Positions 6,260 to 59,196 of a stretch of 64,000 bases of DNA are shown piece after piece. This DNA comes from Granulicella arctica (GTDB taxonomy: Bacteria > Acidobacteriota > Terriglobia > Terriglobales > Acidobacteriaceae), in contig NZ_JAGTUT010000003.1 in NCBI RefSeq assembly GCF_025685605.1, forward strand, positions 62,001-126,000, in the 5' to 3' direction. Position 1 is the first letter of the stretch, and every line of letters begins with the position of its first letter. A program made the translations under genes and the position numbers. The notes under the pieces were generated by a model that was given only the letters and a program-made list of their open reading frames with translations, did not search any database and was not told where the DNA came from.

Positions 6260-6367
6260 CCGTCGGCTTGGGTGGAGTCAGTCGGCTCCGCCCTTTTTCT
6301 TGACCCCTGAGGTCCTCTCCCTTGCAAGGGGGAGGACAAAGCCGCTATGTAGTGGGATACTGGCGAT

Positions 6368-8000: not shown

Positions 8001-8191
8001 TCCATTCGCCCTTGTTCGTAACAGCCTATTTGAATCCGCAATGTACGGCGCGCCGTAGTTTAGATAACGCGTTTCGAGTGCCGACTCGCATCTTAACGTG
8101 AAGAAGTAACGACGAAAGTTGCTTGATGCTTAGTTATTGACCATTCCAAGGTAAGCCGGGTATTCATCTCGGGCCAATCCAAGATCAGCCG

Positions 8192-9355: not shown

Positions 9356-9590
9356 GAACGTTTACCTTCAAAGAAGTTGATATCAGACCCGTAAATCAGA
9401 CTCGTATACAGCGAGAGCCGGTACTACTAAGGAGAGCACGAGCCTTCAGTTTCATCTACACGCGGGGCACATTGGAAGTTAACTCTCTCCTACGCTAATC
9501 TTTTGGAGGAACCTCGGCTCGATTGTTTTGAGCGCAATCTAGAACGGATCAGCACACGTACCCTCTTAAAGTTAAATCTCGGCGGTGTCC

Positions 9591-12088: not shown

Positions 12089-12286
12089 ATGAAGAAGCAG
12101 TGTGTTTTGATTCTGGCCGCAATCGTTGCTCTTTCCGCCTTCCCCATCACGATGTCGGCTCAGCTGGCCAACCCGCAGGTAATGGGAGGTTCCAACCCTC
12201 GTCCTCAGGTGATGGGAGGTTCTAATCCACGGCCCCAAGTGGCAGAGACCTTTTACTCGGCCGTCCTCGCATATTTAGGGTTTTAG
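12089..12286 (+). CDS. Small secreted peptide with NPRPQVMGGS repeats (65 aa)
   Basis: The 65-residue product starts with a clear Sec signal peptide (MKKQCVLILAAIVALSAF..., predicted cleavage after SAQ at about residue 25). The mature part holds three near-copies of N-P-(R-P)-Q-V-M-G-G-S, then the hydrophobic ending AETFYSAVLAYLGF. AAGGAG precedes the ATG by 8 bases. The DNA repeats mirror the peptide repeats (aatgggaggttc / gatgggaggttct). It lies directly before two membrane-protein genes on the same strand. I do not recognise a family. The features fit an exported signalling or precursor peptide, but that is inference. Confidence 0.6.
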   Translation: MKKQCVLILAAIVALSAFPITMSAQLANPQVMGGSNPRPQVMGGSNPRPQVAETFYSAVLAYLGF

Positions 12287-12314
12287 GAAACACTAGAGAG
12301 TCGTTAGAATCACT

Positions 12315-13118: not shown

Positions 13119-13639
13119 CCTTCTTTGTTCTGTACCTTCTTGTATTCCTCGGCGGCGTTGGATATTTCATTGACACTGGATACAAGCGACGCAGACTTCT
13201 CACACAAAGCTGGGGAGAAGTGCTTGGTAAGTTAGATCCTATTGATCTCGAAGGCATTCGGCTGATTGCTGAAAACTTTCAAAGTTTAGACCGCGACCAA
13301 GTTCGGTTCGACGCTAAGGAAATGTGGGAGGTCGTCGGTGGCTTACCTGGTCTAAAAAGGCTGAAAAGGAACGCTTGGGCGATGCTGAATCTGGCGGTTT
13401 ACGCTGAAAAGTGGAATCGCGAGCAGGCGCATTTGGTTTCGGAGATGATTCGCCAGGATGCGACTCGACTCAACCGCGCAATTGTTCGGATCCAGCTAGG
13501 CTTCTTCCTTCAGTTTGGATTTATGAAGTCCACCTTCTACCTTCAGCAAGCGGTGTCGTCCTACGCTCTTGTTCGGAGTCAGTTCGTTGGTCTCTATTAC
13601 ACAGCTCATCTTGGCCCTATACCCGGCCTGGAGTCGTAG
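13115..13639 (+). CDS. Membrane-anchored protein of unknown function (174 aa)
   Basis: The protein starts inside the stop region of the seven-helix gene (ATGA overlap). One transmembrane helix lies at residues 2-19 (TFFVLYLLVFLGGVGYFI), followed by a soluble, mainly helical domain with 'LDPIDLEGIRLIAENF' and 'MWEVVGGLPGLKRLKRNAWAMLNLAVYAEKW'. A second weakly hydrophobic stretch lies near residue 130. I do not recognise a family. Coupled translation implies it works with the seven-helix protein. Confidence 0.6.
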   Translation: MTFFVLYLLVFLGGVGYFIDTGYKRRRLLTQSWGEVLGKLDPIDLEGIRLIAENFQSLDRDQVRFDAKEMWEVVGGLPGLKRLKRNAWAMLNLAVYAEKWNREQAHLVSEMIRQDATRLNRAIVRIQLGFFLQFGFMKSTFYLQQAVSSYALVRSQFVGLYYTAHLGPIPGLES

Positions 13640-13799
13640 CCAGACCGGTGAGTCTCTGGTTCCTCGCGAAAAGCGGACGAGAAACAGTTTGACCTGTCCC
13701 AGGAATCTAGTATCCCTGCCGGACACGCCCTTCCCGCACGCGTATCGAGCCGACCCGTGTCCTCGTCCTTTGCTGAGCCGATCGCTACTCGTCGAAAGA

Positions 13800-14500
13800 T
13801 CATCTATAGGACCGGTCTCGGGCCGCCGTTGACCGATCGATCAAACTTGCCTTATCCCAGAATCGCATCAGATAGCTGGCTTTCACAAAGAATTGCCGTC
13901 CATCGTTCAAGTAGCCAGGACCGCGTGGCAGGATAGGCTCGTCGTGTCACAGCCCGGGCTGGCACCTCGAATGGGCGTGCAGATCGTGTGGTCCAGATTC
14001 TGTAGGTCGTTATTCCAGCCCACATAGATCGCTGTGCCAGGGTGCGAAAGCCAAGTGAAGAGAGCCTGCGTCTGCACCTGCTTTGTTCGAGCCAGTGTCG
14101 TCTCCGCCGCGTTCGCCAGGTTGGAGTCATACTCAACAATGACGCGCGCCGACATGGAGCGTGTGAACTGGTAGTTGATCTTCGTGCGAAGCACCTGATT
14201 CTCGTAGACGAAAGCTCCCGTGTGCGCATTGTGATCGCGATCCAGCAGGTGTGTCTCGTCCGCGGTAAGCTGGCGAAAGGGTTGCAATGTAAACAGCGCC
14301 TGCACAAAGCCTTGATGCAGCAGAGCCGGGCCCTGTCCCGGGAGCGGGTTATAGTTTACGTTGCCTGCGTGCTCCGCAACCACGTTGAAGTTGAACTTCG
14401 CCGATGGCTGTCCGCGGGCAACAAAGCCCGCGTAGTTCTCCGTAAAGTTCACACTCTGCGCAAGGGCGTACCCGTTCTGCGGACCTACCGTGAAGAGCAA
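13800..14500 (-). pseudogene. Remnant of a DUF5916 outer-membrane-type protein (C-terminal part)
   Basis: On the minus strand a frame gives 'NYQFTRSMSARVIVEYDSNL', 'ARTKQVQTQALFTWLSHPGTAIYVGWNNDLQNLD', the beta-barrel-like C-terminus of DUF5916 proteins. Near 13930 the frame shifts; the other frame then gives GPGYLNDGRQFFVKASYLM and RFWDK, the expected family ending. The N-terminal several hundred residues are missing. Near 14470-14500 the sequence runs into a different pseudogene (TolB-like). It cannot make a working protein. Confidence 0.7.
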
Positions 14501-14945
14501 GCTTCTCCAGCTTGCCGTCACGATTGAGCAGAAAGAAAGAGACATCGTGCGACTAGTTCGGCGCTTCGATGTGCGTGGGGCATAACGTATTCGACATGGC
14601 GATCAGTGGAAGCACATTAACGGTTTCGAGCGCGCTATACAACACTGGCGAGCCTGTCGAAAGCGGGACTTTCTCCAACTTGACATTTGCAAATACAGCC
14701 TTCTCAACAGCCTTTTCGTCATGAGCGGAGACTCTGATACCAACATAGAAGGGTTCTTTAAGGACCAGCTTCGTAGATGCCCTTGGCATGCTCAGCTTGC
14801 CATCTTTTCCAGAGACGAAGGTATAGAAGAAATCACCACGCTTCTCAAGCTTCACGGTATGCGGCACCGATACATTAATCTCTACATCGGGGTCGTTGCC
14901 ACCCGTCACATCGCGATAATTGAATCTCGGAGATGAGGGCGATGC
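14500..14945 (-). pseudogene. Remnant of a TolB-like / DUF1349-type protein
   Basis: The minus strand reads 'SPSSPRFNYRDVTGGNDPD', 'VPHTVKLEKRGDFFYTFVSG', 'LKEPFYVGIRVSAHDEKAVEKAVF' and 'SALETVNV', a segment I associate with acidobacterial TolB-propeller proteins with a DUF1349-like domain. It continues in the same frame after a stop: IEAPN-stop-SHDVSFFLLNRDGKL, where family members have Trp (TGG changed to TAG at about 14553). Both ends are missing. The gene is a fragment joined to the DUF5916 remnant by a deletion. Confidence 0.65.
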
Positions 14946-15428
14946 TCTCTCCTCATGATGGCAAGCAATATAGTGGAAGGCACATTGCCGGCACGGCCGC
15001 TACGCTGACCCTTGAATTCTTTCTCCTTGCACTCTTTGCCTGTTTCTATCCGGTTGTTCCGCAGGCAGTTGGCGGCGGCAGGCTGGAGCAGCGCGACGTA
15101 TGGGTTCAAAGACAGCCTGGAACGTGCTGCGTTCCTGCAACGTCGATCTTCCTGCTGAGCATCTGCCGGATGAGGATGCTTTCCTGCTCAGAGGTCTTTG
15201 GGTTCTTCACGAAAGCAGGGACAATTTCATCATTTGAAGAGCCGCGTGCCCTACGAACGCTCTTCCAAAGATTTTAATCAAGACCTATCAATGGCCTCAG
15301 TAGCATCTCTCAACGAACCATCCTCGCGACATCTACGTATGCATTTCCAGCATTGAAGGAAGAAAGCTTTTCCAATGCCTTCAGCAGGAACACCCGGGAA
15401 CACCCTAAGCTACAGAAATTGCCTCACT
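14946..15428. other. Degenerate stretch without an intact gene
   Basis: About 480 bases. The minus strand shows short protein-like pieces in different frames (for example 'DEIVPAFVKNPKTSEQ' near 15220 and 'NPYVALLQPAAANCLRNN' near 15100), separated by stops. They look like further decay of whatever preceded the TolB-like remnant, but I cannot name a family. Confidence 0.4.
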
Positions 15429-16505
15429 TCAGTTGGTATCGTCGATCGGCTCTTCAGGTGCGTTCTGAAGATAGAACTCGTGAAGCTTCGCCTGAAGCAG
15501 TTCCTTGTCGGGAAGTTGAGTTTTGTACTCGGCGATGAGAGTCGGAGACAGACTTCGGCTTAGCGCGAACTCAACCACCTCGTTATTCTTGCTGGCGCAA
15601 AGCAAGACGCCGATGCTGGGCTGTTCGTGAGGTTTTCTGACGTTTCGATCGAGAGCTTCAAGGTAGAAGTCGAGTTTACCAAGATACTCTGGTTCGAAAC
15701 GGCCAACCTTGAGTTCCACGGCAATCAGACAGTTGAGTCCTCGGTGGAAGAACAGCAGATCCAAGGCGAAGTCTCTGTCCCCGACCTGGAGCGGGTATTC
15801 TGAGCCTACGAAGCAGAAGTCACGGCCAAGCTCAATGAGGAAATCCTTCAGTTTGTGGAGCAAGCCTTGGTGCAGATCAGCTTCAGGATGCTCTGGAGGA
15901 AGGCCTAAAAATTCAACGGCATAGGCATCTTTGAAGATGCTTAGCGCTTCCGGGTATCTTTGTGTCACCAGTGGTGACACTTTTGGAGGACTGAGGACCA
16001 CTCTCTCGAATAGAGCGTTCTTGAACTGTCGCTCGAGTTCCCTCTTGCTCCACCTCTCTCGAATTGCAATTTTTATGTAGAACTCTCTCTCTTCAGGTCG
16101 TTTGCTTTGCCCAAGAATGACTAGGTGATGGGACCACGGCAATTGTGTCACCAGTGGAGACACAATTGGATCGCTTACATATGCCTCATAGAATTGCCTC
16201 ATTCTGAAGAGATTGCGTCGCGTAAAACCCCTGAGGTTCGGCTCTTTGCGAGCGATGTACGCAGCGAGCTCATCCACCACCCCGTCGCCCCAGTCCGCCT
16301 CTTCAATCTTCCGTCTGATCATCGCCCCAATCTCCCAATAAAGCGAAATGAGGGTCGAGTTGACGGCCTGCAATGCTCGATCCCGCGAGGTCGATATCAG
16401 GGTCAAAATCTCGCTGAATTCCGTATTGCGGCGCTGCGCAATGGCCTCCTTTACATGGGAGAGCTTCGCGGCATCCTTCGTAGGCGTCAGGTCATTCTTC
16501 GGCAT
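15429..16505 (-). CDS. DUF1016 / YhcG-family PD-(D/E)XK nuclease
   Basis: The 358-residue protein has the DUF1016 N-terminal domain ('LYWEIGAMIRRKIEEADWGDGVVDELA', 'GFTRRNLFRMRQFYEAY', 'LPWSHHLVIL') and the C-terminal PDDEXK nuclease fold ('CFVGSEYPLQVGDRDFALDLLFFHRGLNCLIAVELKVGRF'). The catalytic set D...E-L-K is intact. Residues 'PLVTQ' occur twice (VSPLVTQLPW and VSPLVTQRYP), an internal repetition mirrored in the DNA (tgtcaccagtggtgacac near 15962 and tgtcaccagtggagacac near 16145). ATG 16505 or 16517 may be the start. YhcG-type proteins are found with restriction and phage-defence genes. It lies beside an integrase in the same orientation. Confidence 0.88.
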   Translation of the reverse strand: MPKNDLTPTKDAAKLSHVKEAIAQRRNTEFSEILTLISTSRDRALQAVNSTLISLYWEIGAMIRRKIEEADWGDGVVDELAAYIARKEPNLRGFTRRNLFRMRQFYEAYVSDPIVSPLVTQLPWSHHLVILGQSKRPEEREFYIKIAIRERWSKRELERQFKNALFERVVLSPPKVSPLVTQRYPEALSIFKDAYAVEFLGLPPEHPEADLHQGLLHKLKDFLIELGRDFCFVGSEYPLQVGDRDFALDLLFFHRGLNCLIAVELKVGRFEPEYLGKLDFYLEALDRNVRKPHEQPSIGVLLCASKNNEVVEFALSRSLSPTLIAEYKTQLPDKELLQAKLHEFYLQNAPEEPIDDTN

Positions 16506-16572
16506 GCTGTGAACCATGATAGTCGGTACAACATGGACGGCTTCTACCCGACTAAGGAGCTAAGCTCATATA

Positions 16573-17550
16573 TCAAAGACCCAAATTGTCGTTCACCGCC
16601 ACGACGATCTCCTGCTCCGCTCCAAGGTACCGTTCGGTCGTCTGGATAGACGAGTGCCCGAGCAGGAACTTGATCTGCTCGAGGTCGCCGCCGCCCTTGC
16701 GGCAGAGCTTGGCACAGGTTCTGCGGAGATCGTGGGCCCCGAAGCGTTCGATCCCGATCTGCTTGGCGGATTGCTCGACGACCGACCAGATGGCCCAGTC
16801 GCTCAGGGTCTCGCCGCGGATCTTGCTCCCCTTGCCGATCCGGACGAGGAGCCGGCCTTGCTCGATGCCGGCCGCTTCCCGCCAGGCGTCGATTCCCTTC
16901 TTGACCCAGATCGGGATCGCGACCGTGCGGATCCGCCGGCCCTTTCCTTCGAGATCGGCCAGGACCCAGCGGCCCTCCCGCTGCTGAATCGTCGCGACCT
17001 CCAGTTCAGCTAGTTCGGTCCGGCGCAGGGCGCAGCCGACCAGCAGGGCCAGGATGACGTAGTCGCACTTACCCTTAAGGGTCGACCGGTCCGGCACGGC
17101 CAGCAACTCCTTGGCCTGCTCGCGGGTCAGCCAATTTCCCATCCGGGTTCCCGCCTGCTTGATGTTCGGGATCGAGGTCAGCTGCGCCGCCTCCTCGACC
17201 CCGAGCATGCCGTTCTTCTGCGCTTCCGTCACCATGCGCCGCATGGCCGCGAGCCGCACGTTGATGGTCGACGGCGCGAGCGCCTCGAGGCTCGCGCGGT
17301 ACTCCATGAGGAGCGTGCGGGTGAGAGGTTGGCTGGCAGCGAACCGGAACAGCTGGTCAAGGGCGGTCGCGTAGTTTCGCCTGGAGTGGGCGGACGGGAC
17401 CGTGTCCAGAACCATGCGGCGGAGGAGCGCCTGAGCTGGGGTCAGCGCAAAAGCACTTCCCTGCCTTGCTAAATCGGGGCCGTTTGAGGCTGGATGACCG
17501 GATTCGAGCAGAAATGGCATGAAAACCAGTTTACCCATGACAAGTGACAT
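16573..17550 (-). CDS. Tyrosine recombinase / integrase (XerC/XerD-type fold)
   Basis: About 325 residues. The N-terminal SAM-like core-binding domain covers roughly 45-130 ('SRRNYATALDQLFRFAAS', 'APSTINVRLAAMRRMV'). The catalytic domain follows, with Arg in 'GCALRRTELAELE', 'AHDLRRTCAKLCRKGG' (H-x-x-R), 'FLLGHSSIQTTERYLG' (H and the nucleophile Tyr). All catalytic residues are visible. Starts at 17550, 17538 or 17520 are possible, since all are in-frame ATGs. It could resolve plasmid multimers or have mobilised the adjacent genes. No attachment site is recognised. Confidence 0.92.
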   Translation of the reverse strand: MSLVMGKLVFMPFLLESGHPASNGPDLARQGSAFALTPAQALLRRMVLDTVPSAHSRRNYATALDQLFRFAASQPLTRTLLMEYRASLEALAPSTINVRLAAMRRMVTEAQKNGMLGVEEAAQLTSIPNIKQAGTRMGNWLTREQAKELLAVPDRSTLKGKCDYVILALLVGCALRRTELAELEVATIQQREGRWVLADLEGKGRRIRTVAIPIWVKKGIDAWREAAGIEQGRLLVRIGKGSKIRGETLSDWAIWSVVEQSAKQIGIERFGAHDLRRTCAKLCRKGGGDLEQIKFLLGHSSIQTTERYLGAEQEIVVAVNDNLGL

Positions 17551-31396: not shown

Positions 31397-33706
31397 ATGG
31401 AAACTTACTTCGACTACCTGCGCGCGATGGCTCCTGAACTGGGCTCGCGCATCGTGGAGACTTACCCCGCGCTTCAGTCACCCAAGGACGATGTCGCTCC
31501 CCGTCTAAGCTCGCTTCTCCGTTCCCCGCTGCCTGCTCAGGCTCTCGCGATCACTGGACTAGCCAAGTACCTGAAGACCGCCCGCGCAGCCCGTATTGTG
31601 GCGGAGTGCGGGGCAGGGAAGACCTTCATGTCGCTGGGCACGATCCACGTACATGCCGGCGACAAACCGTACACGTCGCTCGTGATGTGCCCACCACACA
31701 TCGTCCACAAGTGGGCGCGTGAGGCGCTTCTCACGGTCCCCGGAGGCAGAGCGTTCATCATCGAGGACCTGCGCAACGGCGGCGACCCGAAGAACACGCA
31801 TGGCATCGTGGAGGTCAAGCTCGAGAAAGGGAAGACCATCGTCCGTGGCCTGACCACAACTCTCCCGAAGTTGCGCAGCATGGGACGTGCTGGCTGGCGC
31901 GCTCTTTGCCCTGGTCCGGCTTTCTTCATCATGGGCAAGGAGAAGGGCAAGCTCGGCTACTTCTGGAAACATGCTTTCAATGTGGCCAAGAGCGGCCGCG
32001 ACCTCGGGGGCTTGATCAACCCCGACACAGGCCATGCGATCCCGTCGCAGGAGGGTGGTTTCCTCACTCGGCTGGATCTCCGGGAGGCCAAATTCCATGA
32101 GACCTATACGGCAGGGAAGACGGGCACCACCCGGTTCTCTCCTCTGTGGCAGGCTGATGGCAGCAAGATACAGCGTATGGCGCCGCTCGACTTCATCGGC
32201 CGGTATATGAAGGGCTGGTGGGACTACTCGATCGCCGACGAGTTGCACCAACTTGCCGGCGACACAGCACAGGGCAACGGCCTCGGAGTTCTCGCCCGTT
32301 GTGCCGAAAAGCTGATTGCGCTGACGGGCACGCTCATGGGAGGCTATGCCGACGACCTGTTCAACATCTTCTACCGCATGGAACCGCGGCGGATGGTGGC
32401 GGCCGGGTACGAGGCAGGCAGCCAGGGGCGGCGGGACTTTCAGGAGCAATACGGCGTCCTTGAGACCGTGGAGAAGGTCCGCGAGACCGACAATGCCTGC
32501 TCGAAAGCCCAAAAGCGCACCGTCCAGGTTCTCCGCAAACCCGGCGCGTCACCCCTTCTCTTCGGCAAGTACCTGATGGAGTCGACAGCCTTCATCACGC
32601 TTGAAGACATCTCCGATCAGCTGCCGTCGTACGAGGAAAGCGTGCTGACCGTGGACATGGACGGGGAGCTCGCCACAGCGTACGAAGAGATCGAGAAGGA
32701 CATCACCTCCGCCATGAAGGAGCACAGGGGCAACAAGAGCCTGATGAGCGTCATGCTCAACACGCTTCTGCTGTATCCGGACCACCCCTTTGGCATCGAG
32801 GAGATCTGGGGCAAGAAGTTTGATCCGAAGGAAGGCTGCATGGTGCCCTTCTTCGTGACCAATCCGTCCAGCCTGCCGGAAACCGAGGTATACGCCAAGG
32901 AGGAGCGTCTGATCGAGGACATCCGGGAGGAGCTGAAGCAGGGCAGGCGGTGCCAGGTCTACGCTACGTTCACAGGCAAGCACGATGTAACGGGGCGGTT
33001 GGCTCATGTTCTCGGGAACGCGGGCTTTCGAGTGGCGGTTCTCCGCTCCACGGTCCCCACGGACAAGCGGGAGGCCTGGTACGAGAAGCAGCTGAAGGAA
33101 GGGGTAGAGGTGGTCATCTGCCATCCCAAGCTGGTCGAGACCGGCCTCGATCTGCTGGCTTTCCCGACGCTCTACTTCTACGAGACCGGATATTCGCTCC
33201 ACACGCTGCGTCAGGCGAGCCGGCGATCGTGGCGGATCGGGCAGCACTTGCCGGTCCGGGTGAAGTTTCTGGCCTACAGCGGAACGATGCAGGAGACCTG
33301 CATCCGGCACATGGGCAAGAAGATGTTGGTCGCGCTCATGATGGAAGGCAAGTTCTCCGGCGAAGGGCTGCAGTCGCTCGATGCCAACGAGGATCTGCTG
33401 TCCGCCATGGCTCGTGAACTGGTCGAGAAGGGCGGGGTTGGTGAAACAGCCGATGCTGTCTGGAAGGACCTGGAGCGCGAACGGGCCAAGCAGGTACCGG
33501 CACCGAAGCCGATGGCAGAGGTGATCCCAATGCCAGTCACGCCGATCCAACTGGAGAAGGTTGAGGTTGTTCCCGAGTCAATCGAGCTTCCAGTCATGGC
33601 CGGTCTTCAGCTGGTCTTTCCTACCAACCCACGTTCGAAGCGAAAATCTGCCCCGCTCTGGCCAACCGGTCACACGCATGGCGAGCAGATGAGGCTGTTC
33701 GGCTGA
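31397..33706 (+). CDS. SNF2/DEAD-like superfamily 2 helicase of plasmid type
   Basis: The 769-residue protein is an SF2 ATPase. Motif I is 'AECGAGKTFMSLGTIH' near residue 73, motif Ia-like 'SLVMCPPHIVHKWAREAL', motif II 'SIADELHQL' (D-E-L-H) near 280, motif III 'IALTGTLMGG', and in the second RecA domain 'RCQVYATFTGKHDVTGRL', 'VVICHPKLVETGLDLL' and motif VI 'RQASRRSWRIGQ' near 615. The spacing between motifs Ia and II is long, with an insertion. AGGAG precedes the ATG. No nuclease domain is seen. It is likely a DNA translocase for plasmid processes and lies upstream of parDE and the PRTRC genes. Confidence 0.85.
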   Translation: METYFDYLRAMAPELGSRIVETYPALQSPKDDVAPRLSSLLRSPLPAQALAITGLAKYLKTARAARIVAECGAGKTFMSLGTIHVHAGDKPYTSLVMCPPHIVHKWAREALLTVPGGRAFIIEDLRNGGDPKNTHGIVEVKLEKGKTIVRGLTTTLPKLRSMGRAGWRALCPGPAFFIMGKEKGKLGYFWKHAFNVAKSGRDLGGLINPDTGHAIPSQEGGFLTRLDLREAKFHETYTAGKTGTTRFSPLWQADGSKIQRMAPLDFIGRYMKGWWDYSIADELHQLAGDTAQGNGLGVLARCAEKLIALTGTLMGGYADDLFNIFYRMEPRRMVAAGYEAGSQGRRDFQEQYGVLETVEKVRETDNACSKAQKRTVQVLRKPGASPLLFGKYLMESTAFITLEDISDQLPSYEESVLTVDMDGELATAYEEIEKDITSAMKEHRGNKSLMSVMLNTLLLYPDHPFGIEEIWGKKFDPKEGCMVPFFVTNPSSLPETEVYAKEERLIEDIREELKQGRRCQVYATFTGKHDVTGRLAHVLGNAGFRVAVLRSTVPTDKREAWYEKQLKEGVEVVICHPKLVETGLDLLAFPTLYFYETGYSLHTLRQASRRSWRIGQHLPVRVKFLAYSGTMQETCIRHMGKKMLVALMMEGKFSGEGLQSLDANEDLLSAMARELVEKGGVGETADAVWKDLERERAKQVPAPKPMAEVIPMPVTPIQLEKVEVVPESIELPVMAGLQLVFPTNPRSKRKSAPLWPTGHTHGEQMRLFG

Positions 33707-33832
33707 TTTACCCCCGCCAACCGCGCCCGAGAGGGGAGGAAATCTTCCCTCCCGGGCCCACTGCAAAAGAAATAAATGGAGGCACCAATGGAGGAATACA
33801 ATAGGATTCAATCCTACTCGGAGGCGGCACCC

Positions 33833-34114
33833 ATGCGCTCTACACAGCAACTCAGCATTACCCTCCCTAACGAAATGGCGGATCTGGTACGTGCCAAGGT
33901 AGAAGCTGGCGAGTACGCCACGGAAAGCGAAGTGATCAGGGATGGTCTCCGGACTCTTATCGCTCGTGATCGCGTCGTCGAAAATTGGCTTCACGAAAGC
34001 GTAGGTCCGGCTTTTGACGCTTTGAGAGCCGACCCGTCTCGGGCCGTTTCCGCAAAGCATGTTCGGGAAACACTCTCGACAGAACACAACAAAGCGGTTG
34101 CGAAGCAACGTTGA
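33833..34114 (+). CDS. parD: ParD-type RHH antitoxin
   Basis: The 93-residue protein has the ParD N-terminal ribbon-helix-helix: 'QQLSITLPNEMADLVRAKVEAGEYATESEVIRDGLRTLIARD'. The C-terminal tail wraps the toxin in this family. The ATG at 33833 follows GGAGG (33820-33824) and matches the family start; a longer version from 33776 is less likely. Its stop overlaps the parE start (TGATG). It neutralises ParE and represses its own operon. Confidence 0.9.
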   Translation: MRSTQQLSITLPNEMADLVRAKVEAGEYATESEVIRDGLRTLIARDRVVENWLHESVGPAFDALRADPSRAVSAKHVRETLSTEHNKAVAKQR

Positions 34115-34422
34115 TGCCCTACACGGTTGTTTTTACGCCTGAAGCAGAGGCGCAGCTGCTTGAGCTGTATGGCTACCTTGCGGTTGAAGCATCTCCGGAG
34201 ACCGCTGCGCGGTTCACAGACGGCATTGTCACCTATTGCGAGAGCTTGAGTACCTTTCCACTGCGAGGCACTCGCCGCGATGATGTACGGCTAGGGCTGC
34301 GCATCACCAGCTACCGTAAACGTGTTGTTGTTGCCTTTGCGGTTGACGCCGATCAGGTCCAGATTATCGGGATCTTCTACGGCGGTCAGAACTATGAGGC
34401 GATCCTTCAAGACGAAAACTAA
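34114..34422 (+). CDS. parE: ParE-type toxin (RelE/ParE superfamily)
   Basis: The 102-residue protein starts within the parD stop. It matches ParE: 'YTVVFTPEAEAQLLELYGYLAVEASPETAARFTDGIVTYCESLSTFPLRGTRRDDVRLGLRI' and 'VVVAFAVDADQVQIIGIFYGGQNYEAIL'. ParE toxins poison DNA gyrase. With parD it forms a post-segregational killing module that stabilises the plasmid. Two hairpins with T-rich tails follow. Confidence 0.92.
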   Translation: MPYTVVFTPEAEAQLLELYGYLAVEASPETAARFTDGIVTYCESLSTFPLRGTRRDDVRLGLRITSYRKRVVVAFAVDADQVQIIGIFYGGQNYEAILQDEN

Positions 34423-34461: not shown

Positions 34462-34525
34462 GCCCGTCCTCTGGACGGGCTTTCCTGTGTCTGGACCCGG
34501 CCTTCGTGCCGGGTCTTTCTGCTTT
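34462..34525 (+). terminator. Tandem intrinsic terminators after parDE
   Basis: GCCCGTCC (34462-34469), loop TCT, GGACGGGC (34473-34480), then TTTCCTGTGT. A second hairpin, GACCCGGC (34494-34501) with GCCGGGTC (34508-34515) around CTTCGT, is followed by TTTCTGCTTT. Both stems are perfect 8-bp GC stems with T-rich tails, so they act as terminators for parDE. Confidence 0.75.
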
Positions 34526-34555
34526 CAAGGAGATTCCATGGCCACTGCCGTTGCC

Positions 34556-34936
34556 CTAAACCTTCCGCGCCTCCTCTTTGCCATACAGCACGAGACCACA
34601 TGGCACCTGTTCGCCGTAGTGCTCACGCACGAGGACGATATAAGCAAGCACCTGGATCAGGTGATTGGGATACACCCCACCTCTGGCCGGCGGTCGAGCC
34701 GACTTCTTCAGCTCCACTGGGATGATTCCGTCCACATTGCGGATCAGACAGTCAGGTTTCCCTCGAAGTCCCAGCCGCTCTGAAACGAGCGTGGGTGGGC
34801 TCACCTGCTGGCTTTCGTGGTCCTGGTAGACGACGTCGCCATCCGGGATCCCGAGCGCCCTCTTTCGTTTTTGGCTGAGGCGTAGCAGCAGCACACCTAC
34901 AACCAGTGCACCCAAAGCTGCCAGCAGCAGGAGCAT
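34556..34936 (-). CDS. Cas4-like PD-(D/E)XK nuclease core with N-terminal membrane helix (second half of split pair)
   Basis: The 126-residue protein begins with a transmembrane helix (LLLLAALGALVVGVLLL). The nuclease core follows: 'LGLRGKPDCLIRNVDGIIPVELKKSARP' supplies P-D and E-L-K, and 'NHLIQVLAYIVLVREHYG' supplies the Q/Y helix. It stops at YGKEEARKV, before the C-terminal Cys cluster of Cas4/AddB-type enzymes, so the tail seems lost. The other strand there starts a different-looking leader with a ribosome site (AAGGAG at 34528-34533). It overlaps the preceding gene by TGATG. It is a membrane-bound exonuclease-like protein, probably truncated. Confidence 0.65.
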   Translation of the reverse strand: MLLLLAALGALVVGVLLLRLSQKRKRALGIPDGDVVYQDHESQQVSPPTLVSERLGLRGKPDCLIRNVDGIIPVELKKSARPPARGGVYPNHLIQVLAYIVLVREHYGEQVPCGLVLYGKEEARKV

Positions 34937-35184
34937 CAGAGCACCCGCCAGAGAGCCACAGCAAGCAACAGAAGAGCCAGGACCATAGCCGCGATACCGG
35001 CGCCACTCAGCGCATCAGTCCTCGCGATCTTTGCGCCTTGCGCCTGATGCCAAAGCTCCCCTTCAACCTGGGCTTCCCGTGCTTCAGCGCTGGACGGCTC
35101 TTTGCACACCATTTTTAGCCACCACGCACGTTGGCAGTACACAAACTCTGCCAGCTCGCTCACTCGTATCGGTCGGTCATTCAT
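34936..35184 (-). CDS. Cas4-like N-terminal module with membrane helix (first half of split pair)
   Basis: The 82-residue protein begins MNDRPIRVSELAEFVYCQR, matching the Cas4/Dna2 N-terminus with its first iron-sulfur Cys (V-Y-C-Q-R-A-W-W-L). A helical stretch (EAQVEGELWHQA) follows, then a C-terminal transmembrane helix (GIAAMVLALLLLAVALW). The nuclease residues are not here but in the next gene, whose start overlaps this stop (TGATG). Either the family is encoded as two subunits in this plasmid or a frameshift split one gene between two membrane helices. Confidence 0.62.
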   Translation of the reverse strand: MNDRPIRVSELAEFVYCQRAWWLKMVCKEPSSAEAREAQVEGELWHQAQGAKIARTDALSGAGIAAMVLALLLLAVALWRVL

Positions 35185-35246
35185 CACGTCTTGATTCGGC
35201 CTCAACTTCCGGTTTCCGTCAAATCCCATTCTTCAGAGGTACTTCT

Positions 35247-35759
35247 ATGTTCCGAGAACTCGCGCCCCTCCTACGACAGCGAGCCGTTCTGCTCACGGTC
35301 ACTCACCTCGAGGAGGATCAGATTCGTGTCAACGTGCTTCCCAAGCAGGTAGGCACGGGTGAGAATACAGCTCTCATAACTCCATTCAGCGTCACGGGTA
35401 CTGCCGAGGAGTTGGACGAACAGTTGCCGCAGGCTTTCGTCCAGTTCGTCGGCAAACATCTGGAGCTAAAGAACACCCTCGAAGCGGCCAAGGCCGAGAT
35501 GGACGCCGCGGGCAAACAGGCAAAGGAAGAGGCGAAGTCGAAGACCAAGATGACGGTCAAGAAGCCAGAGCCAGAGCCCGCGAAACCTGAACCAGCAAAA
35601 ACAGCGCCAGCACCTGGTCTCTTCGACACACTGCCTACTGCAGCAGAACCTACGCCACCAAGTTCCGATGAGGACGAAATCCTGAAGGAGATCCAAGCCA
35701 ATGAGCAGTCTGACGACGACACCGAAAATGACCTTGAAGACGAACCTGTTGCCGCGTGA
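35247..35759 (+). CDS. PRTRC system protein E
   Basis: The 170-residue protein starts MFRELAPLLRQRAVLLTVTH, followed by 'RVNVLPKQVGTGENTALITPFSVTGTAEELDEQLP', which I recognise as PRTRC protein E. The C-terminal half is charged and Pro/Ala/Lys-rich (KPEPEPAKPEPAKTAPAP) and ends with an acidic tail. PRTRC (ParB-related, ThiF-related cassette) genes occur on plasmids with unknown joint function. Its end overlaps the start of protein C by about 59 bases. The start at ATG 35247 fits the family; longer frames upstream do not. Confidence 0.85.
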   Translation: MFRELAPLLRQRAVLLTVTHLEEDQIRVNVLPKQVGTGENTALITPFSVTGTAEELDEQLPQAFVQFVGKHLELKNTLEAAKAEMDAAGKQAKEEAKSKTKMTVKKPEPEPAKPEPAKTAPAPGLFDTLPTAAEPTPPSSDEDEILKEIQANEQSDDDTENDLEDEPVAA

Positions 35760-35937
35760 GTTCGTTTACAACGGGTCCAAGATTCCCGATCCGAACCCTG
35801 AAATGACTGTGGAGCAGGTTCGAGAGTTGCTCACCGCAGCCTACCCGGAGATCTCGACGGCAGCGGTCTCTGGGCCAGAAGACGCCGGCAGGAGTTTGCG
35901 ATACACCTTCACCCGGGCGATTGGCTCGAAGGGGTAA
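35701..35937 (+). CDS. PRTRC system protein C
   Basis: The 78-residue protein holds 'LLPREFVYNGSKIPDPNPEMTVEQVRELLTAAYPEISTAAVSGPE' and 'LRYTFTRAIGSKG', a ubiquitin-like small protein pattern typical of PRTRC protein C. GGAG (35686-35689) supports ATG 35701; ATG 35728 is an alternative. It overlaps the end of E, so the two are coupled. The ThiF partner expected for a ubiquitin-like protein is not in the window. Confidence 0.85.
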   Translation: MSSLTTTPKMTLKTNLLPREFVYNGSKIPDPNPEMTVEQVRELLTAAYPEISTAAVSGPEDAGRSLRYTFTRAIGSKG

Positions 35938-35941
35938 CGGC

Positions 35942-36154
35942 ATGCCCAGCACAGCGAAGGATCGGCTTCTGGTTGAGTTTGCCAGCCTCACCCAGAAGCC
36001 GCTTACACCTAACGAAGAACGGCTCAGGAGACATCTCGAATGCGACAAGTGCGTCAAGCTATGCTCCGCCCTCGCGGAAGCCGTCCAACCCTACCGAAAC
36101 CAAGCCCAGCGTGTTCTCGACGCACCCACCGAGTTGCTGGCGCCCCTGCTGTAG
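35942..36154 (+). CDS. Small Cys-containing protein between PRTRC C and F
   Basis: The 70-residue protein starts 4 bases after PRTRC C. It has 'LTPNEERLRRHLECDKCVKLCSALAEAVQPY' with C-x2-C-x3-C, which may bind metal. Its 3' end overlaps the F frame by more than 100 bases, so one of the two starts is wrong or the genes are overlapped. No family recognised. Confidence 0.55.
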   Translation: MPSTAKDRLLVEFASLTQKPLTPNEERLRRHLECDKCVKLCSALAEAVQPYRNQAQRVLDAPTELLAPLL

Positions 36155-37110
36155 GGCTGCTGGCACCAGCCTTCGGCCAGGCGCTCCCCAGCCTGGCCGA
36201 AGTGCCAGCCGCTTACTCCCATAGCGAAAATACGGGCACCCTCCTCGAGCTCTGCCGAGTCCTGGTGGAGCATGACCTCGGAGATGAAACCCTATGGAAG
36301 AGCAGCGGCAAACAGCCCCTCAGGTTCGCGGCGGCCGCAATCAAAGAAGAAATCGAGGAGCGCTGCGGAGATATGTTGACCCGCAACGTCAATTACGAAC
36401 TCTCGATACAAGACAGTATCGGCAGCTACGGTGACGAGAATCTGCGTGAAGGCGTACTGCTTCTTTCGGTTGATTGCAGCGGTTGTGGATACTTGAAGAT
36501 CGGCCCTGCCCTGGCAGCGTTAGAGAAAGAGGAGGAAGGGCTAGGAGCAGCCTTCTATCACCTGCTTCGGCTCTCGCTTTATCGCTGGCTCCGCTTGTAT
36601 GACCACACAGATGCAGAGGCATACAACGAGAACCTGCGTGAGTGGGCGGAACAGGAAGACGAACAGGCCCGCGAAGAGTATGAGATCGCCGACGTCGGAG
36701 GAGCATTACCGGCATTTCTCCGCGGAGAAGACAAACGGCAAGCTAAAGACTACCGCGCTCTGATTCGCCGGCATCGCCGTGGCCCACAGAGGGCATGGAT
36801 CGAAAGCCTGCTTCGCATCGCGGCGTTGACCCGCGTTCCCTCACGTTCGCCTCGGGAGCTCATCGATGCCTATTGGGACGACATCCCTCTGCCTGCCTTG
36901 CTGATCTGCTTTCACGACCAGGATGCGATTGCCGCGGCGTTCGACGCGGAAGCCCGCTCCATGCAGGAGGCTTCGCACGAGCCGACTTACCTCCAGGTTT
37001 TCTCCCCCTCGAACCCTGCTGAAGCCGACAAAGCCTTCCGTGGCTTTGCGCGCTTTCTGGCGATCAACCTGGAGCTCTTCACGCTGGTGGAGGCCCTGAA
37101 CCAAGCATAA
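36040..37110 (+). CDS. PRTRC system protein F
   Basis: From about residue 45 the protein matches PRTRC F: 'LAEVPAAYSHSENTGTLLELCRVLV', 'LREGVLLLSVDCSGCGYLKIGPALAALE', 'AAFYHLLRLSLYRWLRLYDHTDA' and 'FRGFARFLAINLELFTLVEAL'. The first 40 residues read in the overlap with the small upstream gene and look unlike protein F, so the real start may be later or non-ATG. The frame itself is certain to 37110. It is followed 13 bases later by PRTRC B with GGAG between. Order E-C-F-B is the usual one. Confidence 0.85.
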   Translation: MRQVRQAMLRPRGSRPTLPKPSPACSRRTHRVAGAPAVGLLAPAFGQALPSLAEVPAAYSHSENTGTLLELCRVLVEHDLGDETLWKSSGKQPLRFAAAAIKEEIEERCGDMLTRNVNYELSIQDSIGSYGDENLREGVLLLSVDCSGCGYLKIGPALAALEKEEEGLGAAFYHLLRLSLYRWLRLYDHTDAEAYNENLREWAEQEDEQAREEYEIADVGGALPAFLRGEDKRQAKDYRALIRRHRRGPQRAWIESLLRIAALTRVPSRSPRELIDAYWDDIPLPALLICFHDQDAIAAAFDAEARSMQEASHEPTYLQVFSPSNPAEADKAFRGFARFLAINLELFTLVEALNQA

Positions 37111-37123
37111 GGAGACCTCACAC

Positions 37124-38350
37124 GTGCAGACCCAGATCTCGATCGGCAGCAACAGAAACTTTGCCATGAGCCAGGCCCTTCTCATCTACAAGGGGGATTC
37201 AAACAGGGAAGCTTTCGTTACCCTTCACCAGGTCGGCAAGCAGGCTCATTGCCCACCGACGCTCGGTCCGGCCGAAACGCTTACACAGGCTTTTCTCGAT
37301 AGCCTTGTGCGCGCAGTGGGCGGCAACGCAGCTGTTGAAGTCCTTCCGGAGAACGTTCTCGCACGCACACAACATATGCTGGCGTGGTGGGTGCCGGCGA
37401 AGGCGCGACGGATGTTCTTCCAGCACGCGCAAGGTGTGCTCGACGACTTGAACGAAGCCGCTGCGCGGCGAACGCATCGCCTCGAGTGGGGGATTTCCCA
37501 GTATCCCGTTGTTCCAGGTCACGAGATCGTCGGAACAGTGGCGGCAGTAGGTTCTGCCGTTACCCGGCTACAGGTCGGGCAGCGTGTCGGCGTCGGTGCG
37601 CTTTGCGGCTCGTGCATGCAGTGTGAATGGTGTGAAGGCGGGGCGCAGCACGTCTGCGCCCAAGTTGTAGGCACAGTGATGGGCGAACACAAAGGAGGCT
37701 TCGCGTCTGTCGTTCGGGTGAACAACTGGCAGTTCGCTCACCCCTTACCCGATACGATTGCCTCCGAATACGGTGGGCCGTTGATGTGTGCCGGCACGAC
37801 GGTGTTTACACCGATGATTCGCTATGGAGTGCGGCCCACGGACCGCGTTGCGGTCGTCGGCATTGGGGGTCTGGGTCACTTGGCGGTGCAGTACCTCGCC
37901 AAGTGGGGCTGCGAGGTGACCGCGATCAGTTCCACGCATGAAAAGGATGAGATGGCTCACGGCTTCGGCGCTACGCGCTTTATTGCCACCCGTGGCACGG
38001 ATGAGCTGCAGAAGGCTGCGCGGTCTTTTGACTTCATTCTCTCCACGGTATCCGCAGACCTGCCTTGGGATCAATACATGACGGCTCTACGACCGCAGGG
38101 AAAGCTTTGCATCGTGGGCATTCCGGAGAAGCCGATCTCTGTGGTTTCCTGGAACCTCATTGGTGGAGAAAAGTCCATCGTCGGCGGTCAGCCAGGATCG
38201 ATCGACGAGACGCAGCAAATGCTGGAATTCTCTGCAACGCATGGAGTGAAACCGATGATCGAGACATTTCCAATGCACGAGGCCAACGCGGCCCTCGACC
38301 ATACTCGCAAAGGGAAGGCACGCTTCCGCTCCGTTCTCGTAGCGGAGTGA
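37124..38350 (+). CDS. In-frame chimera: PRTRC protein B N-terminus fused to a zinc alcohol dehydrogenase
   Basis: Starting at GTG 37124, residues 1 to about 103 match PRTRC B ('SQALLIYKGDSNREAFVTLHQV', 'VLPENVLARTQHMLAWWVPAKARRMFF'). From about residue 105 the protein is an alcohol dehydrogenase of the CAD/YahK type: 'EWGISQYPVVPGHEIVGTVAAVGS', structural zinc Cys set 'CGSCMQCEWCEGGAQHVC', and Rossmann 'VAVVGIGGLGHLAVQYL'. The first 45 residues of the ADH, including the catalytic-zinc Cys of G-V-C-H-S-D, are missing (QGVLDDLNEA at the join). The fused protein is 408 residues. Without that Cys it is probably inactive. This is a deletion or recombination junction at about 37430. Confidence 0.85.
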   Translation: MQTQISIGSNRNFAMSQALLIYKGDSNREAFVTLHQVGKQAHCPPTLGPAETLTQAFLDSLVRAVGGNAAVEVLPENVLARTQHMLAWWVPAKARRMFFQHAQGVLDDLNEAAARRTHRLEWGISQYPVVPGHEIVGTVAAVGSAVTRLQVGQRVGVGALCGSCMQCEWCEGGAQHVCAQVVGTVMGEHKGGFASVVRVNNWQFAHPLPDTIASEYGGPLMCAGTTVFTPMIRYGVRPTDRVAVVGIGGLGHLAVQYLAKWGCEVTAISSTHEKDEMAHGFGATRFIATRGTDELQKAARSFDFILSTVSADLPWDQYMTALRPQGKLCIVGIPEKPISVVSWNLIGGEKSIVGGQPGSIDETQQMLEFSATHGVKPMIETFPMHEANAALDHTRKGKARFRSVLVAE

Positions 38351-38499
38351 CCATCTCCGGCTACGAAAGCGCTTCCCAGTTCTTCGGGAGTTTCGCCGCC
38401 TCGTTGGGACTCCTACCATGCGAGACATGGAACGTCTCATTACTGCTTCAGGGCATGTGACGGGCAGAGCGAAGGCGGCGAGTCGAGTAAAGTTATGCC

Positions 38500-39490
38500 T
38501 CAAGCAGTGATAACGACCTTGCCGACCTGCGTATTGGATTCGAGAAAACGATACGCGTCCGCTGACTGCTCCAGGGGAAACGTCTTTGCAATCTTCGGAA
38601 CGAACCGACCGTCTTGAAATCGTTGGCGAAGATAACGCTGTCCTTCCTCAAGCACGGACTGTTTGCCCCGGACCTCATTAGTCGTATAGCCGCGCAGGTT
38701 GATCGCTTTTGCCAATCCCGCCATAAGTGGGTATACCGTGGGTTGTCCGGATAGTCCACCATACAGAAAGATGGTGGCGCCAGGGGATGCGGCCTCGGCC
38801 AGCTTTTCGACGTATGGGCCACCAACAGAATCAAACATCACGCGGGCTCCCTCACCGCCACTCATCTCGCGCAGGCGAGCGGGCAGGTCTTCCTCTTTGG
38901 TCGCGATGACGTAATCCGCGCCGAGTGCGAGCAGTTCCTGTCGCTTCTCCGACGTGCGTGTGGCAGCAATGGCCACAGCGCCTGCGTCTTTTACAATTTG
39001 GATTGCCGCCAAGCCCACGCCGCTGGAGGCGGCCGAAATCAGAACGAAGTCGCCCGTCTTAACTCGTGCATAGTGAATCAGAGCGCCCCAGGCCGTTAGA
39101 TATGCAATCCAAATTGAGGCGCCCTGGGAGGGCGACAAGTTGGCAGGGTATTCGGCAACCGTAGACACCGGCACAATAGCCTCTTCGCCGAGCACGCCGA
39201 ACTCGCCCTGCGAGAAACCGCCCATCGTGGATACTTGCCTGCCGATGAGGGCAGGGTCCACGCCCGGACCCACTGCTTCTATGGATCCCGCGGCTTCAAA
39301 TCCAATGCGCGATGGAAGGGTTGGCTTGTCTCCGTAATAGGAGCTACGCATATACATCGCTTCGGAACGATTCAGGCAATCGCTTGCACACGCGCTTGAC
39401 CTCATCTTTGCCGGACCGCCGCGATGGAGCATCCTCTAGCTGCAGATTTTCCGGGCCGCCAAACTCATGCAAACGAACAATCCTCGGCAC
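38500..39490 (-). pseudogene. Zinc-independent quinone-oxidoreductase-type MDR enzyme, frameshifted near the N-terminus
   Basis: GTG 39490 with AGGAGG upstream starts 'PRIVRLHEFGGPENLQLEDAP'. The frame breaks around 39390-39400 (after GKDEVK), and the other frame continues as 'NRSEAMYMRSSYYGDKPTLPSRIGFEAAGSIEAVG', then 'VLISAASSGVGLAAIQIVKDAGAVAIAATRT' (NADPH Rossmann loop) to 38500. The reconstructed length is about 328 residues, normal for quinone oxidoreductase/zeta-crystallin relatives. The region at the break also mismatches, so more than one base may be altered. It is convergent with the chimeric ADH. Confidence 0.8.
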
Positions 39491-40326: not shown

Positions 40327-41370
40327 ATGCGATACAGGAAGCTCGGTCACACAGGTCTTGACGTCTCGCCCATCTGCATTGGCTGCATGGGCTTTGGCGA
40401 TCCTTCTCGCGGCTACCCGGCTTGGTCGCTCGACGAGGAAGCCAGTCGATCCTTGATTCGGCACTCTACCGAAGCGGGGATCAACTTCTTCGACACAGCA
40501 AATATGTACTCCAACGGCAGCAGCGAGGAGATCGTTGGCAGAGCATTGAAAGAATTCAGTAACCGCGATAGCGTCGTCATCGCGACCAAGGTAGCTCCCC
40601 CCACGCACAACGGGCCAAACGCCATCGGATTATCCCGCAAGGCGATCATGGCGGAGATCGACGGTAGCTTACGGCGACTTGGCACAGATTACGTCGATTT
40701 GTACCAGATTCATCGACGCGATCAATCGACTCCTTGGGAGGAAACGTTGGAAGCCCTTCACGATCTTGTGAAAATGGGCAAAGTGCGCTATCTCGGTGCT
40801 TCCTCCATGAAGGCCTGGGAGTTCAGCAAGGCGCTTCACTTGCAGAAAACTAACGGCTGGACGCGTTTCGTGTCCATGCAGGACAACTACAATCTCCTTG
40901 CGCGGGAAGAAGAACGCGAGATGCTGCCGCTATGCGCCGATGAAGGCGTCCAGACGATGGTCTATAGTCCGCTTGCCCGTGGCAAACTCGCGCGTCCGTG
41001 GGGTGAATCGACTGCCCGTGCGGAAGCTGAGCTTGCCGGCGCCAGGCAAAACGAGGCAACGGCCGCCAGCGATCAGAAGATCGTCGAAGCGGTGGCTGCG
41101 ATTGCAACGGAACGTAGCGTCGGCCAGGCGCAAGTAGCCTTAGCTTGGCTGCTTCGCAATCCCGTCATTGCGGCACCCATCGTCGGCGCGTTGAAGACGA
41201 AGCACATAGACGACGCGGTCGCAGCACTCGACATCCATCTGACCGATGAAGAGGTCGCGAGACTCGGTCAGTCTTATATCCCCCGTGTCGATAATCAAGG
41301 TTTATCCGATCCGGCAATCCTGCATCGCGGCATGGAGGCCACGACGGGGTTCAAAGTGAACGCCGCTTAG
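40327..41370 (+). CDS. Aldo/keto reductase
   Basis: The 347-residue protein starts MRYRKLGHTGLDVSPICIGC. The AKR tetrad is visible: Asp in 'FFDTANMYSNGSSEEIVG' with Tyr in N-M-Y, Lys in 'VVIATKV', and His in 'DLYQIHRRD'. The NADPH-binding end includes 'AQVALAWLLRNPVIAAPIVG'. It reduces aldehydes or ketones with NADPH in the cytoplasm. The divergent tetR and paired palindromes suggest substrate-inducible control. From about codon 78 the gene is present again almost unchanged in inverted orientation at 58.0-58.85 kb. Confidence 0.92.
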   Translation: MRYRKLGHTGLDVSPICIGCMGFGDPSRGYPAWSLDEEASRSLIRHSTEAGINFFDTANMYSNGSSEEIVGRALKEFSNRDSVVIATKVAPPTHNGPNAIGLSRKAIMAEIDGSLRRLGTDYVDLYQIHRRDQSTPWEETLEALHDLVKMGKVRYLGASSMKAWEFSKALHLQKTNGWTRFVSMQDNYNLLAREEEREMLPLCADEGVQTMVYSPLARGKLARPWGESTARAEAELAGARQNEATAASDQKIVEAVAAIATERSVGQAQVALAWLLRNPVIAAPIVGALKTKHIDDAVAALDIHLTDEEVARLGQSYIPRVDNQGLSDPAILHRGMEATTGFKVNAA

Positions 41371-41526
41371 GATGTTTCGACAAGAGCCGCGTGTCATTCA
41401 GGTGCGATCCGCCCGTAGAGCATCCATCTGATCTGTACGAGAAGCCGCAATCTGGGAAGTTGGCCGGATCAGGCCGAAATTCTTTTGATGCTGAGATCTC
41501 CAATCCGCTTTCGGGTTAGGAGTGGT

Positions 41527-57743: not shown

Positions 57744-58037
57744 CACGCTCTTGCCGCGTACGTTCGATCGAAATCCGTACAAACGCCATGGTCGGAAGCC
57801 GAATGAGCAAGAAGCGTACCCAATCGAAATGAAATCTCAGGGAGTACAAGCATGACCGATCAATGCTTACCGGCGGTTCCAGAGAGTATAAAGCTGCACG
57901 TTCTGCAAATCCCCGGCTGTGAAACGGTATTTCGGCGGCAACCTTCCGACAATGCGATTTCCTCGGTATCGATGATCTGGAGTTCTACAAAGCCGCTGGT
58001 CGCACGCGAACGGCCCGCGGCCTTTTATTGAAACATC
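57744..58037 (+). other. Short truncated frame before the inverted duplication
   Basis: ATG 57852 with GGGAG before it opens a 59-residue frame (MTDQCLPAVPESIKLHVLQI at the start) that ends at 58031, exactly where the duplicated block begins (58024). It is probably the start of a gene cut off by the duplication. The family is not recognised. Confidence 0.35.
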
Positions 58038-58853
58038 CTAAGCGGCGTTCACTTTGAACCCCGTCGTGGCCTCCATGCCGCGATGCAGGATTGCCGGATC
58101 GGATAAACCTTGATTATCGACACGGGGGATATAAGACTGACCGAGTCTCGCGACCTCTTCATCGGTCAGATGGATGTCGAGTGCTGCGACCGCGTCGTCT
58201 ATGTGCTTCGTCTTCAACGCGCCGACGATGGGTGCCGCAATGACGGGATTGCGAAGCAGCCAAGCTAAGGCTACTTGCGCCTGGCCGACGCTACGTTCCG
58301 TTGCAATCGCAGCCACCGCTTCGACGATCTTCTGATCGCTGGCGGCCGTTGCCTCGTTTTGCCTGGCGCCGGCAAGCTCAGCTTCCGCACGGGCAGTCGA
58401 TTCACCCCACGGACGCGCGAGTTTGCCACGGGCAAGCGGACTATAGACCATCGTCTGGACGCCTTCATCGGCGCATAGCGGCAGCATCTCGCGTTCTTCT
58501 TCCCGCGCAAGGAGATTGTAGTTGTCCTGCATGGACACGAAACGCGTCCAGCCGTTAGTTTTCTGCAAGTGAAGCGCCTTGCTGAACTCCCAGGCCTTCA
58601 TGGAGGAAGCACCGAGATAGCGCACTTTGCCCATTTTCACAAGATCGTGAAGGGCTTCCAACGTTTCCTCCCAAGGAGTCGATTGATCGCGTCGATGAAT
58701 CTGGTACAAATCGACGTAATCTGTGCCAAGTCGCCGTAAGCTACCGTCGATCTCCGCCATGATCGCCTTGCGGGATAATCCGATGGCGTTTGGCCCGTTG
58801 TGCGTGGGGGGAGCTACCTTGGTCGCGATGACGACACTATCGCGGTTGGAATT
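58038..58853 (-). pseudogene. Truncated inverted copy of the aldo/keto reductase gene
   Basis: The block repeats, in inverted orientation, the sequence 40548-41376 of the aldo/keto reductase gene. The encoded 240 C-terminal residues are identical, and only scattered bases differ (for example gatagTgtc versus gatagCgtc). Homology begins near TTGAAAGAATTC (58842-58853) and ends just past the stop at about 58024. The N-terminal 75 codons, promoter and operator are missing, so it is not functional. Confidence 0.92.
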
Positions 58854-58856
58854 CTT

Positions 58857-59196
58857 TCAAGCCCCTGCTTGCCAAGCACCAGCCTCTGCGCGCCTTTCGT
58901 ACCTGGTGTGTCACTTCGCCAGATTTGGGAGAATGAAGTACGGAGTCGCTGACATCGTCGATGCGGCGACATCGGGTCAAGATCTCCAAGAGACCTACAC
59001 GCCGATGCTGGGCGCCGTACGCCAGTTCATCCATGCCTATGAAGGGTCGGGCAATATCCGGGCCGGAACTGACCTCGAAGATTTTCTGGTCTTGGTAGGA
59101 CTCTTATGGCGTATCCCCCCAACTCTGTCCGGTGAAGCGCGAGTCAGGAGACTTCTTGACCTTGCGTTCCGTGGGTTGGGCGCAAACGATCAGTAA
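58857..59196 (+). pseudogene. Truncated TetR fragment related to the regulator at 39.7-40.2 kb
   Basis: The frame reads 'FARFGRMKYGVADIVDAATSGQDLQETYTPMLGAVRQFIHAYEGSGNIRAGTDLEDFLVLVGLLWRIPPTLSGEARVRRLLDLAFRGLGAND', close to but clearly less similar to the TetR at 39.7 kb than the adjacent reductase copies are to each other. It lacks the whole HTH. The divergent order (TetR fragment, then reductase fragment on the other strand) matches the parent locus with its middle deleted. Confidence 0.82.

Follow-up and report, generated by a model that had tools for sequence, protein, structure and literature searches.

A chimeric PRTRC B–alcohol dehydrogenase reading frame in Granulicella arctica, most probably left by an IS91-type element

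PRTRC protein B is represented by the NCBIfam family TIGR03737 and the Pfam family Prok-E2_D, and from that Pfam name and general descriptions of bacterial E2-like proteins we take its conserved cysteine to be an E2-like catalytic residue. The context for this reading comes from the general account of bacterial E2-like proteins in the portion of PMC1779556 on which we draw. Ahr, or YjgB of E. coli, is an NADPH-dependent aldehyde reductase (NF047908; PDB 7bu2, 7bu3). In IS91-family elements, according to the sections of PMC3189936 used here, transposition begins at the right end and terminates at the left, products of failed stops retain the right end, and left ends carry a GC-rich stem-loop. 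For Pseudomonas syringae 1448A, the same sections state that most fragments of IS801, a member of the IS91 family, were judged to be products of reorganisation, and that chimeras formed between mobile elements and host coding sequences were judged mostly altered or non-functional (PMC3189936).

We analysed a window of 64,000 nucleotides from Granulicella arctica, positions 62001-126000 of contig C3 (243,985 bp), which from its size and PRTRC content is probably a plasmid; the genome comprises 9 contigs and 5.85 Mb, with 4.74 Mb in contig C1. Positions 37124-38350 (+) of the window hold an open reading frame of 408 codons, with a GTG start and without an internal stop, whose 408-residue product would have three parts: the front of PRTRC B (residues 1-108), a linker (109-120) and a dehydrogenase (121-408). 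The reading that we prefer, at a probability of roughly 0.86, is that a mobile element left this chimeric frame behind, through an IS91-type insertion in PRTRC B and a subsequent deletion or recombination that glued two broken genes together. It would differ from the IS-derived chimeras of P. syringae 1448A, as the sections of PMC3189936 used here present them, in that no more than about 34 bp of the element are left, as a linker between two host gene fragments.

An earlier note on this DNA had proposed an in-frame fusion of PRTRC B to a zinc alcohol dehydrogenase (ADH) with a 408-residue product. Both the open frame and the profile matches of the two halves bear this out (TIGR03737, E 5e-14; NF047908, E 3e-106; both below the curated cut-offs). 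The note assigned the first 103 residues to PRTRC B, which is indeed where the profile match ends, but blastn identity runs on to residue 108, at base 37447. The frame is kept across the join that it placed near 37430, but the joint proper is a 35-bp stretch (37448-37482) explained by neither PRTRC B nor ADH and consisting mostly of an IS91-type left end. This remnant is absent from the earlier reading.

Table 1. Features of the PRTRC block and the hybrid reading frame (window positions).
Feature	Position	Strand	Basis
Cas4/PD-(D/E)XK-like nuclease, shortened, left edge of PRTRC block	34556..34936	-	126 aa vs 176 aa in L059
PRTRC E	35031..35759	+	TIGR03741, E 4.5e-20, over cut-off; family match from residue 73
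PRTRC C, 78 aa	35701..35937	+	Open frame; close L062 homologue matches TIGR03738 at 7.9e-25
356-aa gene at PRTRC F position (label positional only)	36040..37110	+	ORF; homologous genes occupy this position in L059, L060, L062
AAGGAG ribosome-binding-like motif	37109..37114	+	Sequence; 9 bases 5' of GTG, overlaps stop of upstream gene
PRTRC protein B 5' part (residues 1-108), native start kept	37124..37447	+	TIGR03737 positions 1-94/228; blastn edge 37447
IS91-family left-end remnant (element: tyrosine recombinase + Y2 transposase)	37443..37477	+	91-97% identity; source of most of the linker (12 residues, 109-120)
Few bases of ambiguous origin, second joint	37478..37483	+	Diverge from IS copies and from ADH relatives shown
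Ahr/YjgB-type zinc alcohol dehydrogenase 3' part (residues 121-408)	37484..38350	+	NF047908 positions 51-334/335; alignments A1, A2

The front of the hybrid matches positions 1-94 of 228 of TIGR03737 in NCBIfam with 52.2 bits, which is below the curated cut-off of 131.45 for membership. Its likeness to PRTRC B lies in residues 1-108, in the start site and in its place in the operon: the native B start and the AAGGAG motif are retained, immediately 3' of the upstream gene. Intact PRTRC B has 237 residues in the operons of three same-genus genomes (L059 from G019, L060 from G026 and L062 from G015). These operons match the window from 34559, 34557 and 34970, at 90%, 79% and 80% identity respectively, and in all three blastn identity ends at 37447. 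Unlike intact PRTRC B, the hybrid lacks the remaining ~129 residues and with them the cysteine of the VCxGSM motif, which lies beyond the break in alignment A1 and is conserved in five of the six intact relatives aligned, the sixth reading VCLGTM. Alignment A1 sets this cysteine opposite C178 of the dehydrogenase half; in our reading, the pairing with a residue that is the ADH's own is a coincidence.

The back of the hybrid matches positions 51-334 of 335 of NF047908 (355 bits in NCBIfam, short of the curated membership cut-off of 470). Dehydrogenase homology begins at 37483-37484, and ADH genes with a full N-terminus, one at L018 (uncultured Granulicella, Acidobacteriota; the closest named relative) and one from G026 (L061/L004), match from 37483 to 38343-38344; amino-acid identity is 82% to L018 and 80% to L061. 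With Ahr/YjgB this half shares the structural-zinc-type cysteines, the GHE motif and the Rossmann domain. In alignment A2, C164, C167, C170 and C178 are invariant (C-x2-C-x2-C-x7-C) and the Rossmann motif GIGGLG is retained at 246-251. In contrast to Ahr/YjgB, the first ~50 residues are missing, and the CGxC(H)(S/T)D motif is absent in both A1 and A2; across the 24 rows of A2 the G, C, H, S and D columns of that motif reach at least 90% conservation. The earlier note was thus right that the catalytic cysteine segment is lacking. In this enzyme family the cysteine of the motif is the catalytic-zinc ligand.

The ~34-bp filler between the two halves corresponds, in the element's own direction, to an IS91-family left end, with 91-97% identity over 28-35 bases at 12 places in eight same-genus genomes (G002, G005, four times in G028, twice in G072, G073, G076, G078 and G079). 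This count is a lower bound from a DNA search of 60 same-genus genomes, own included, in which five candidates were scored per genome; a shorter query run on 62 genomes brings in additional, weaker places, such as those in G020, G031, G033 and G068. At best, 33 of 34 bases are identical (L086). Ten of the 12 fetched copies were compared further, L089 and L095 being left out at contig ends. Alignment scores against these ten were 26-32, which none of 500 shuffles reached, the highest shuffle scoring 16. Five of the ten show both ends of a ~2.5 kb element (L085 twice, L091, L093 and L094), and in the other five the match stops after about 170, 240, 740, 1230 and 1370 bp. At L085, the one copy tested, the Pfam domains are Phage_integrase (PF00589, E 1.2e-41), Y2_Tnp (PF04986, E 1e-59) and Zn_Tnp_IS91 (PF14319, E 2.1e-27); the first belongs to a tyrosine recombinase and the other two to a transposase, and by these genes the element is a member of the IS91 family.

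With the five two-ended copies the window has the left-end sequence and the stem-loop in common; the latter is retained as GCCGC-TGC-GCGGC, with -6.3 kcal/mol as DNA in a calculation without shuffle control. Unlike them, the window contains no detectable transposase, recombinase or right end of the element, and the remnant itself holds no gene. Its outer boundary is blurred, the first ~5 bases (CGAC) being common to PRTRC B. A point against this origin is that the genome contains no further copy of the left end when 3 mismatches are allowed in a 24-mer, which requires that the source element arrived and was lost again; one distant relative, 67% identical, lies on C1. Queried with the whole element, 29 of 60 genomes (own included) match in some way, many of them partially, and left-only or right-only pieces occur elsewhere in the genus; these counts are lower bounds, and some of the pieces may be cut by contig ends or be distant relatives only. 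The element with its tyrosine recombinase gene is common in the genus (L085-L095), with many copies matching at one end only. Some left ends append a short tail to host reading frames, as at L093 3828-4994, a presumably RHS-like gene.

Two other sources for the filler were considered and rejected. A 10-row protein alignment places the linker NEAAARRTH opposite NEVDVRVTH of ADH, which suggested the 5' end of the ADH gene itself. At the DNA level, scores against eight ADH 5' regions and three PRTRC B downstream regions were 6-10, mostly at shuffle level: the L018 5' region scored 9, reached by 81 of 500 shuffles, and L023, the least ordinary, was reached by 16 of 500. A coding sequence on G026:C261, which we take to be hsdR-like, matches 37455-37482 (93% over 28 bp, E 9e-5). 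It was seen once and does not cover 37444-37454, and we judge the match to be chance; it does span 37478-37482 of the unexplained bases 37478-37483 and may have supplied these last few. A direct illegitimate recombination of the PRTRC B gene with the ADH gene, in which the filler would merely resemble an IS91-type end, would be helped by the shortness of the filler, by this hsdR-like match in one genome and by the shared CGAC, which could be plain microhomology. We nevertheless consider it very unlikely, given the 33 identical bases of 34, the similar ends at 12 places and copy scores well above the best shuffle.

One-ended transposition was also rejected as the origin. As the sections of PMC3189936 used here describe them, products of failed stops keep the right end without a true left end, whereas it is the left end that the window retains. 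We therefore read a lone left end as the remnant of a rearrangement, in agreement with the judgement on IS801 fragments cited above. The mobile-element origin that we prefer would have proceeded as follows. First, an IS91-family element would have inserted in PRTRC B, oriented so that its left end pointed to the front of the gene, as the remnant and its orientation suggest. A deletion or recombination would then have run from ~35 bp inside the left end into an Ahr-type ADH gene, as far as about codon 51. Missing from the locus are the remainder of the element, the 3' part of B, ThiF and the 5' part of the ADH gene; we infer that this second step removed them, as we infer the order of the two steps. 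The second joint would by chance have fallen in phase, and translation from the native B start would yield the 408-residue hybrid. Since one of the three phases is open at the second joint, the in-frame join would be about a one-in-three accident, and the open frame would need no selection. Because both active-site-type cysteines, that of B and the catalytic-zinc-type cysteine of the ADH, are lost, the product is most likely a non-functional scar without either activity. What remains of the PRTRC block (E, C, the gene at the F position and the B front) would no longer be able to act as an intact system.

It is extremely unlikely that the assembler joined two unrelated stretches. A piece of a repeated element family does sit exactly at the joint, and the judgement was made from the assembly without reads. 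However, the joint piece is unique in the genome at the 3-mismatch level given above, so there is no assembly repeat at this point. The rest of the assembly yielded neither a further piece of PRTRC B nor a PRTRC ThiF, nor any ADH above 48%, and its nine contigs are 100% complete with 0.2% contamination.

The fusion looks like a single event and not a family, since the whole joint occurs in none of the 61 other same-genus genomes in a DNA search of 62 (own included); other genomes match its parts separately, and at most 13 candidate stretches were scored in each genome. No homologue carrying this fusion, which the earlier note had named as the mark of a real family, was found among 60 relatives by protein search either. 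By a start-codon rule, 39 of 41 ADH loci checked have an ordinary ADH N-terminus, the other two being L035 and L036. A search of PLSDB plasmids with a 55-residue peptide across the joint returned 269 records, and among the 10 listed one covers at least 80% of the query (44% identity, E 9e-3). We rejected this record, Agrobacterium plasmid CP129670.1 (L113), as a decayed, unannotated ADH fragment whose upstream translation is by eye unlike PRTRC B; the fragment, at 1201-1350, has lost its front part and lies near an IS6-family transposase gene. A search of plasmid DNA with 34500-38400 returned a single match, of 114 bp, within the ADH part.

With 2 nonsynonymous and 4 synonymous differences between the B half and G019 (dS 0.054), the join probably arose recently, within the time of a small divergence, and in a recent join an open frame would be expected without selection. 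Also relative to G019, dS is 0.12 for the gene at the F position and 0.63 for PRTRC E from the family start on (0.41 over the whole listed reading frame). The drop along 35031-37447, from 0.63 through 0.12 to 0.05, may reflect recombination inside the PRTRC block. In the ADH half, none of 96 positions invariant in five homologues has changed, compared with 4 of 100 in L018 and 5 of 101 in G026 as controls. Its lineage carries 1.5 nonsynonymous versus 41.5 synonymous changes and that of L018 20.5 versus 50.5, rough counts in view of saturated synonymous sites. Because the B half has diverged so little from G019, this constraint would mostly predate the join; the undecayed state of the ADH half fits a recent event and would also fit a working protein.

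In the AlphaFold prediction, all 10-residue blocks of 201-380 reach a pLDDT of at least 90, and 1-130 lies at 30-58. Structural prediction, which the earlier note had suggested, is thus confident for the ADH half but not for the first 130 residues. The input alignment contained no PRTRC B relatives for the B half, over which ADH N-termini were aligned instead. The model matches E. coli YjgB nearly full-length. Given those N-termini in the alignment, we do not take this match to mean that the B piece stands in for the missing ADH segment. There is a slim chance that the hybrid is a new working protein, with the PRTRC B piece as a docking or expression signal and the NADP-binding Rossmann part in a binding or regulatory role. 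The frame without stop or frameshift, the native start with its ribosome-binding-like site, the 96 of 96 invariant positions kept, the excess of synonymous changes, and the predicted fold with its likeness to YjgB are all consistent with such a protein. Both active-site-type cysteines are missing, however; the B piece covers 94 of 228 family positions at low pLDDT, with no B relatives in the alignment; the 61 other same-genus genomes offer no second example; and the ADH constraint is mostly older than the join. We find it barely credible that the element end, as an in-frame linker, has created a new expressed two-domain protein, in which an NADP-binding Rossmann unit is joined to a piece of an E2-like plasmid protein, and that the host now uses it.

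The left side of the PRTRC block is likewise cut, as the homology edge at 34557-34559 truncates the minus-strand Cas4-like nuclease. In PRTRC E, dN exceeds dS over the first 70 columns, and the first ~70 codons of the listed reading frame are probably not coding. The gene at the F position has no Pfam match at 0.01 and one insignificant NCBIfam match (E 0.027), and its L062 homologue is likewise without a significant match. PRTRC B exceeds the cut-off in 7 of 61 same-genus genomes (G001, G015, G017, G019, G026, G027 and G033, the last covering 191 of 228 positions), and partial copies are found in the present genome and in G034, where the copy scores below the cut-off and contains a stop. In six of the seven, PRTRC ThiF lies directly 3' of B; in G019 the contig ends just behind B. 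Behind the B part of the hybrid stands the ADH instead, and ThiF is missing from the genome (best match 28.6 bits, cut-off 144.75). The earlier note held that A, ThiF, D and ParB were all lost here, which is supported for ThiF but not for the others. PRTRC A or D was found at E<=0.001 in none of eight genomes (own and the seven with B over the cut-off), a weak negative since no positive control rang, and PRTRC ParB over the cut-off in none of the eight, all of which have ordinary ParB relatives; G034 was left out of the searches for A, D, ParB and ThiF. On this evidence, gene loss at this point would hold for ThiF only.

Several other features lie on the contig. A ParDE-type toxin-antitoxin pair (33776-34422) is located between a helicase gene (31397-33706) and the PRTRC block, and the helicase has a relative near the PRTRC operon of G001 (L075). 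The region 2298-17550 encodes an ArdC-like anti-restriction protein, GGDEF and GGDEF/EAL proteins, a DUF1016/YhcG nuclease and a phage-type integrase. Downstream of the hybrid, at 38500-39432 (-), the best NCBIfam match of a quinone-oxidoreductase-like gene begins at position 39, and the start of this gene may also be truncated or frame-shifted. An aldo/keto reductase (AKR) gene is duplicated at 98% identity in opposite orientation (40538-41407 and 58000-58868 (-)), and the TetR-AKR neighbourhood has further matches of 71-83% elsewhere in the genome.

Among the matches listed in literature searches on PRTRC and on Granulicella with IS91, nothing concerns this junction. The locus offers a base-level example of a mobile-element end serving as the linker between two unrelated genes. 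It also carries a warning for annotation, as a clean two-domain open frame with significant matches in both halves need not represent a protein family. For the strain itself, the evidence points to a broken PRTRC block on this replicon, and PRTRC function should not be inferred from it.
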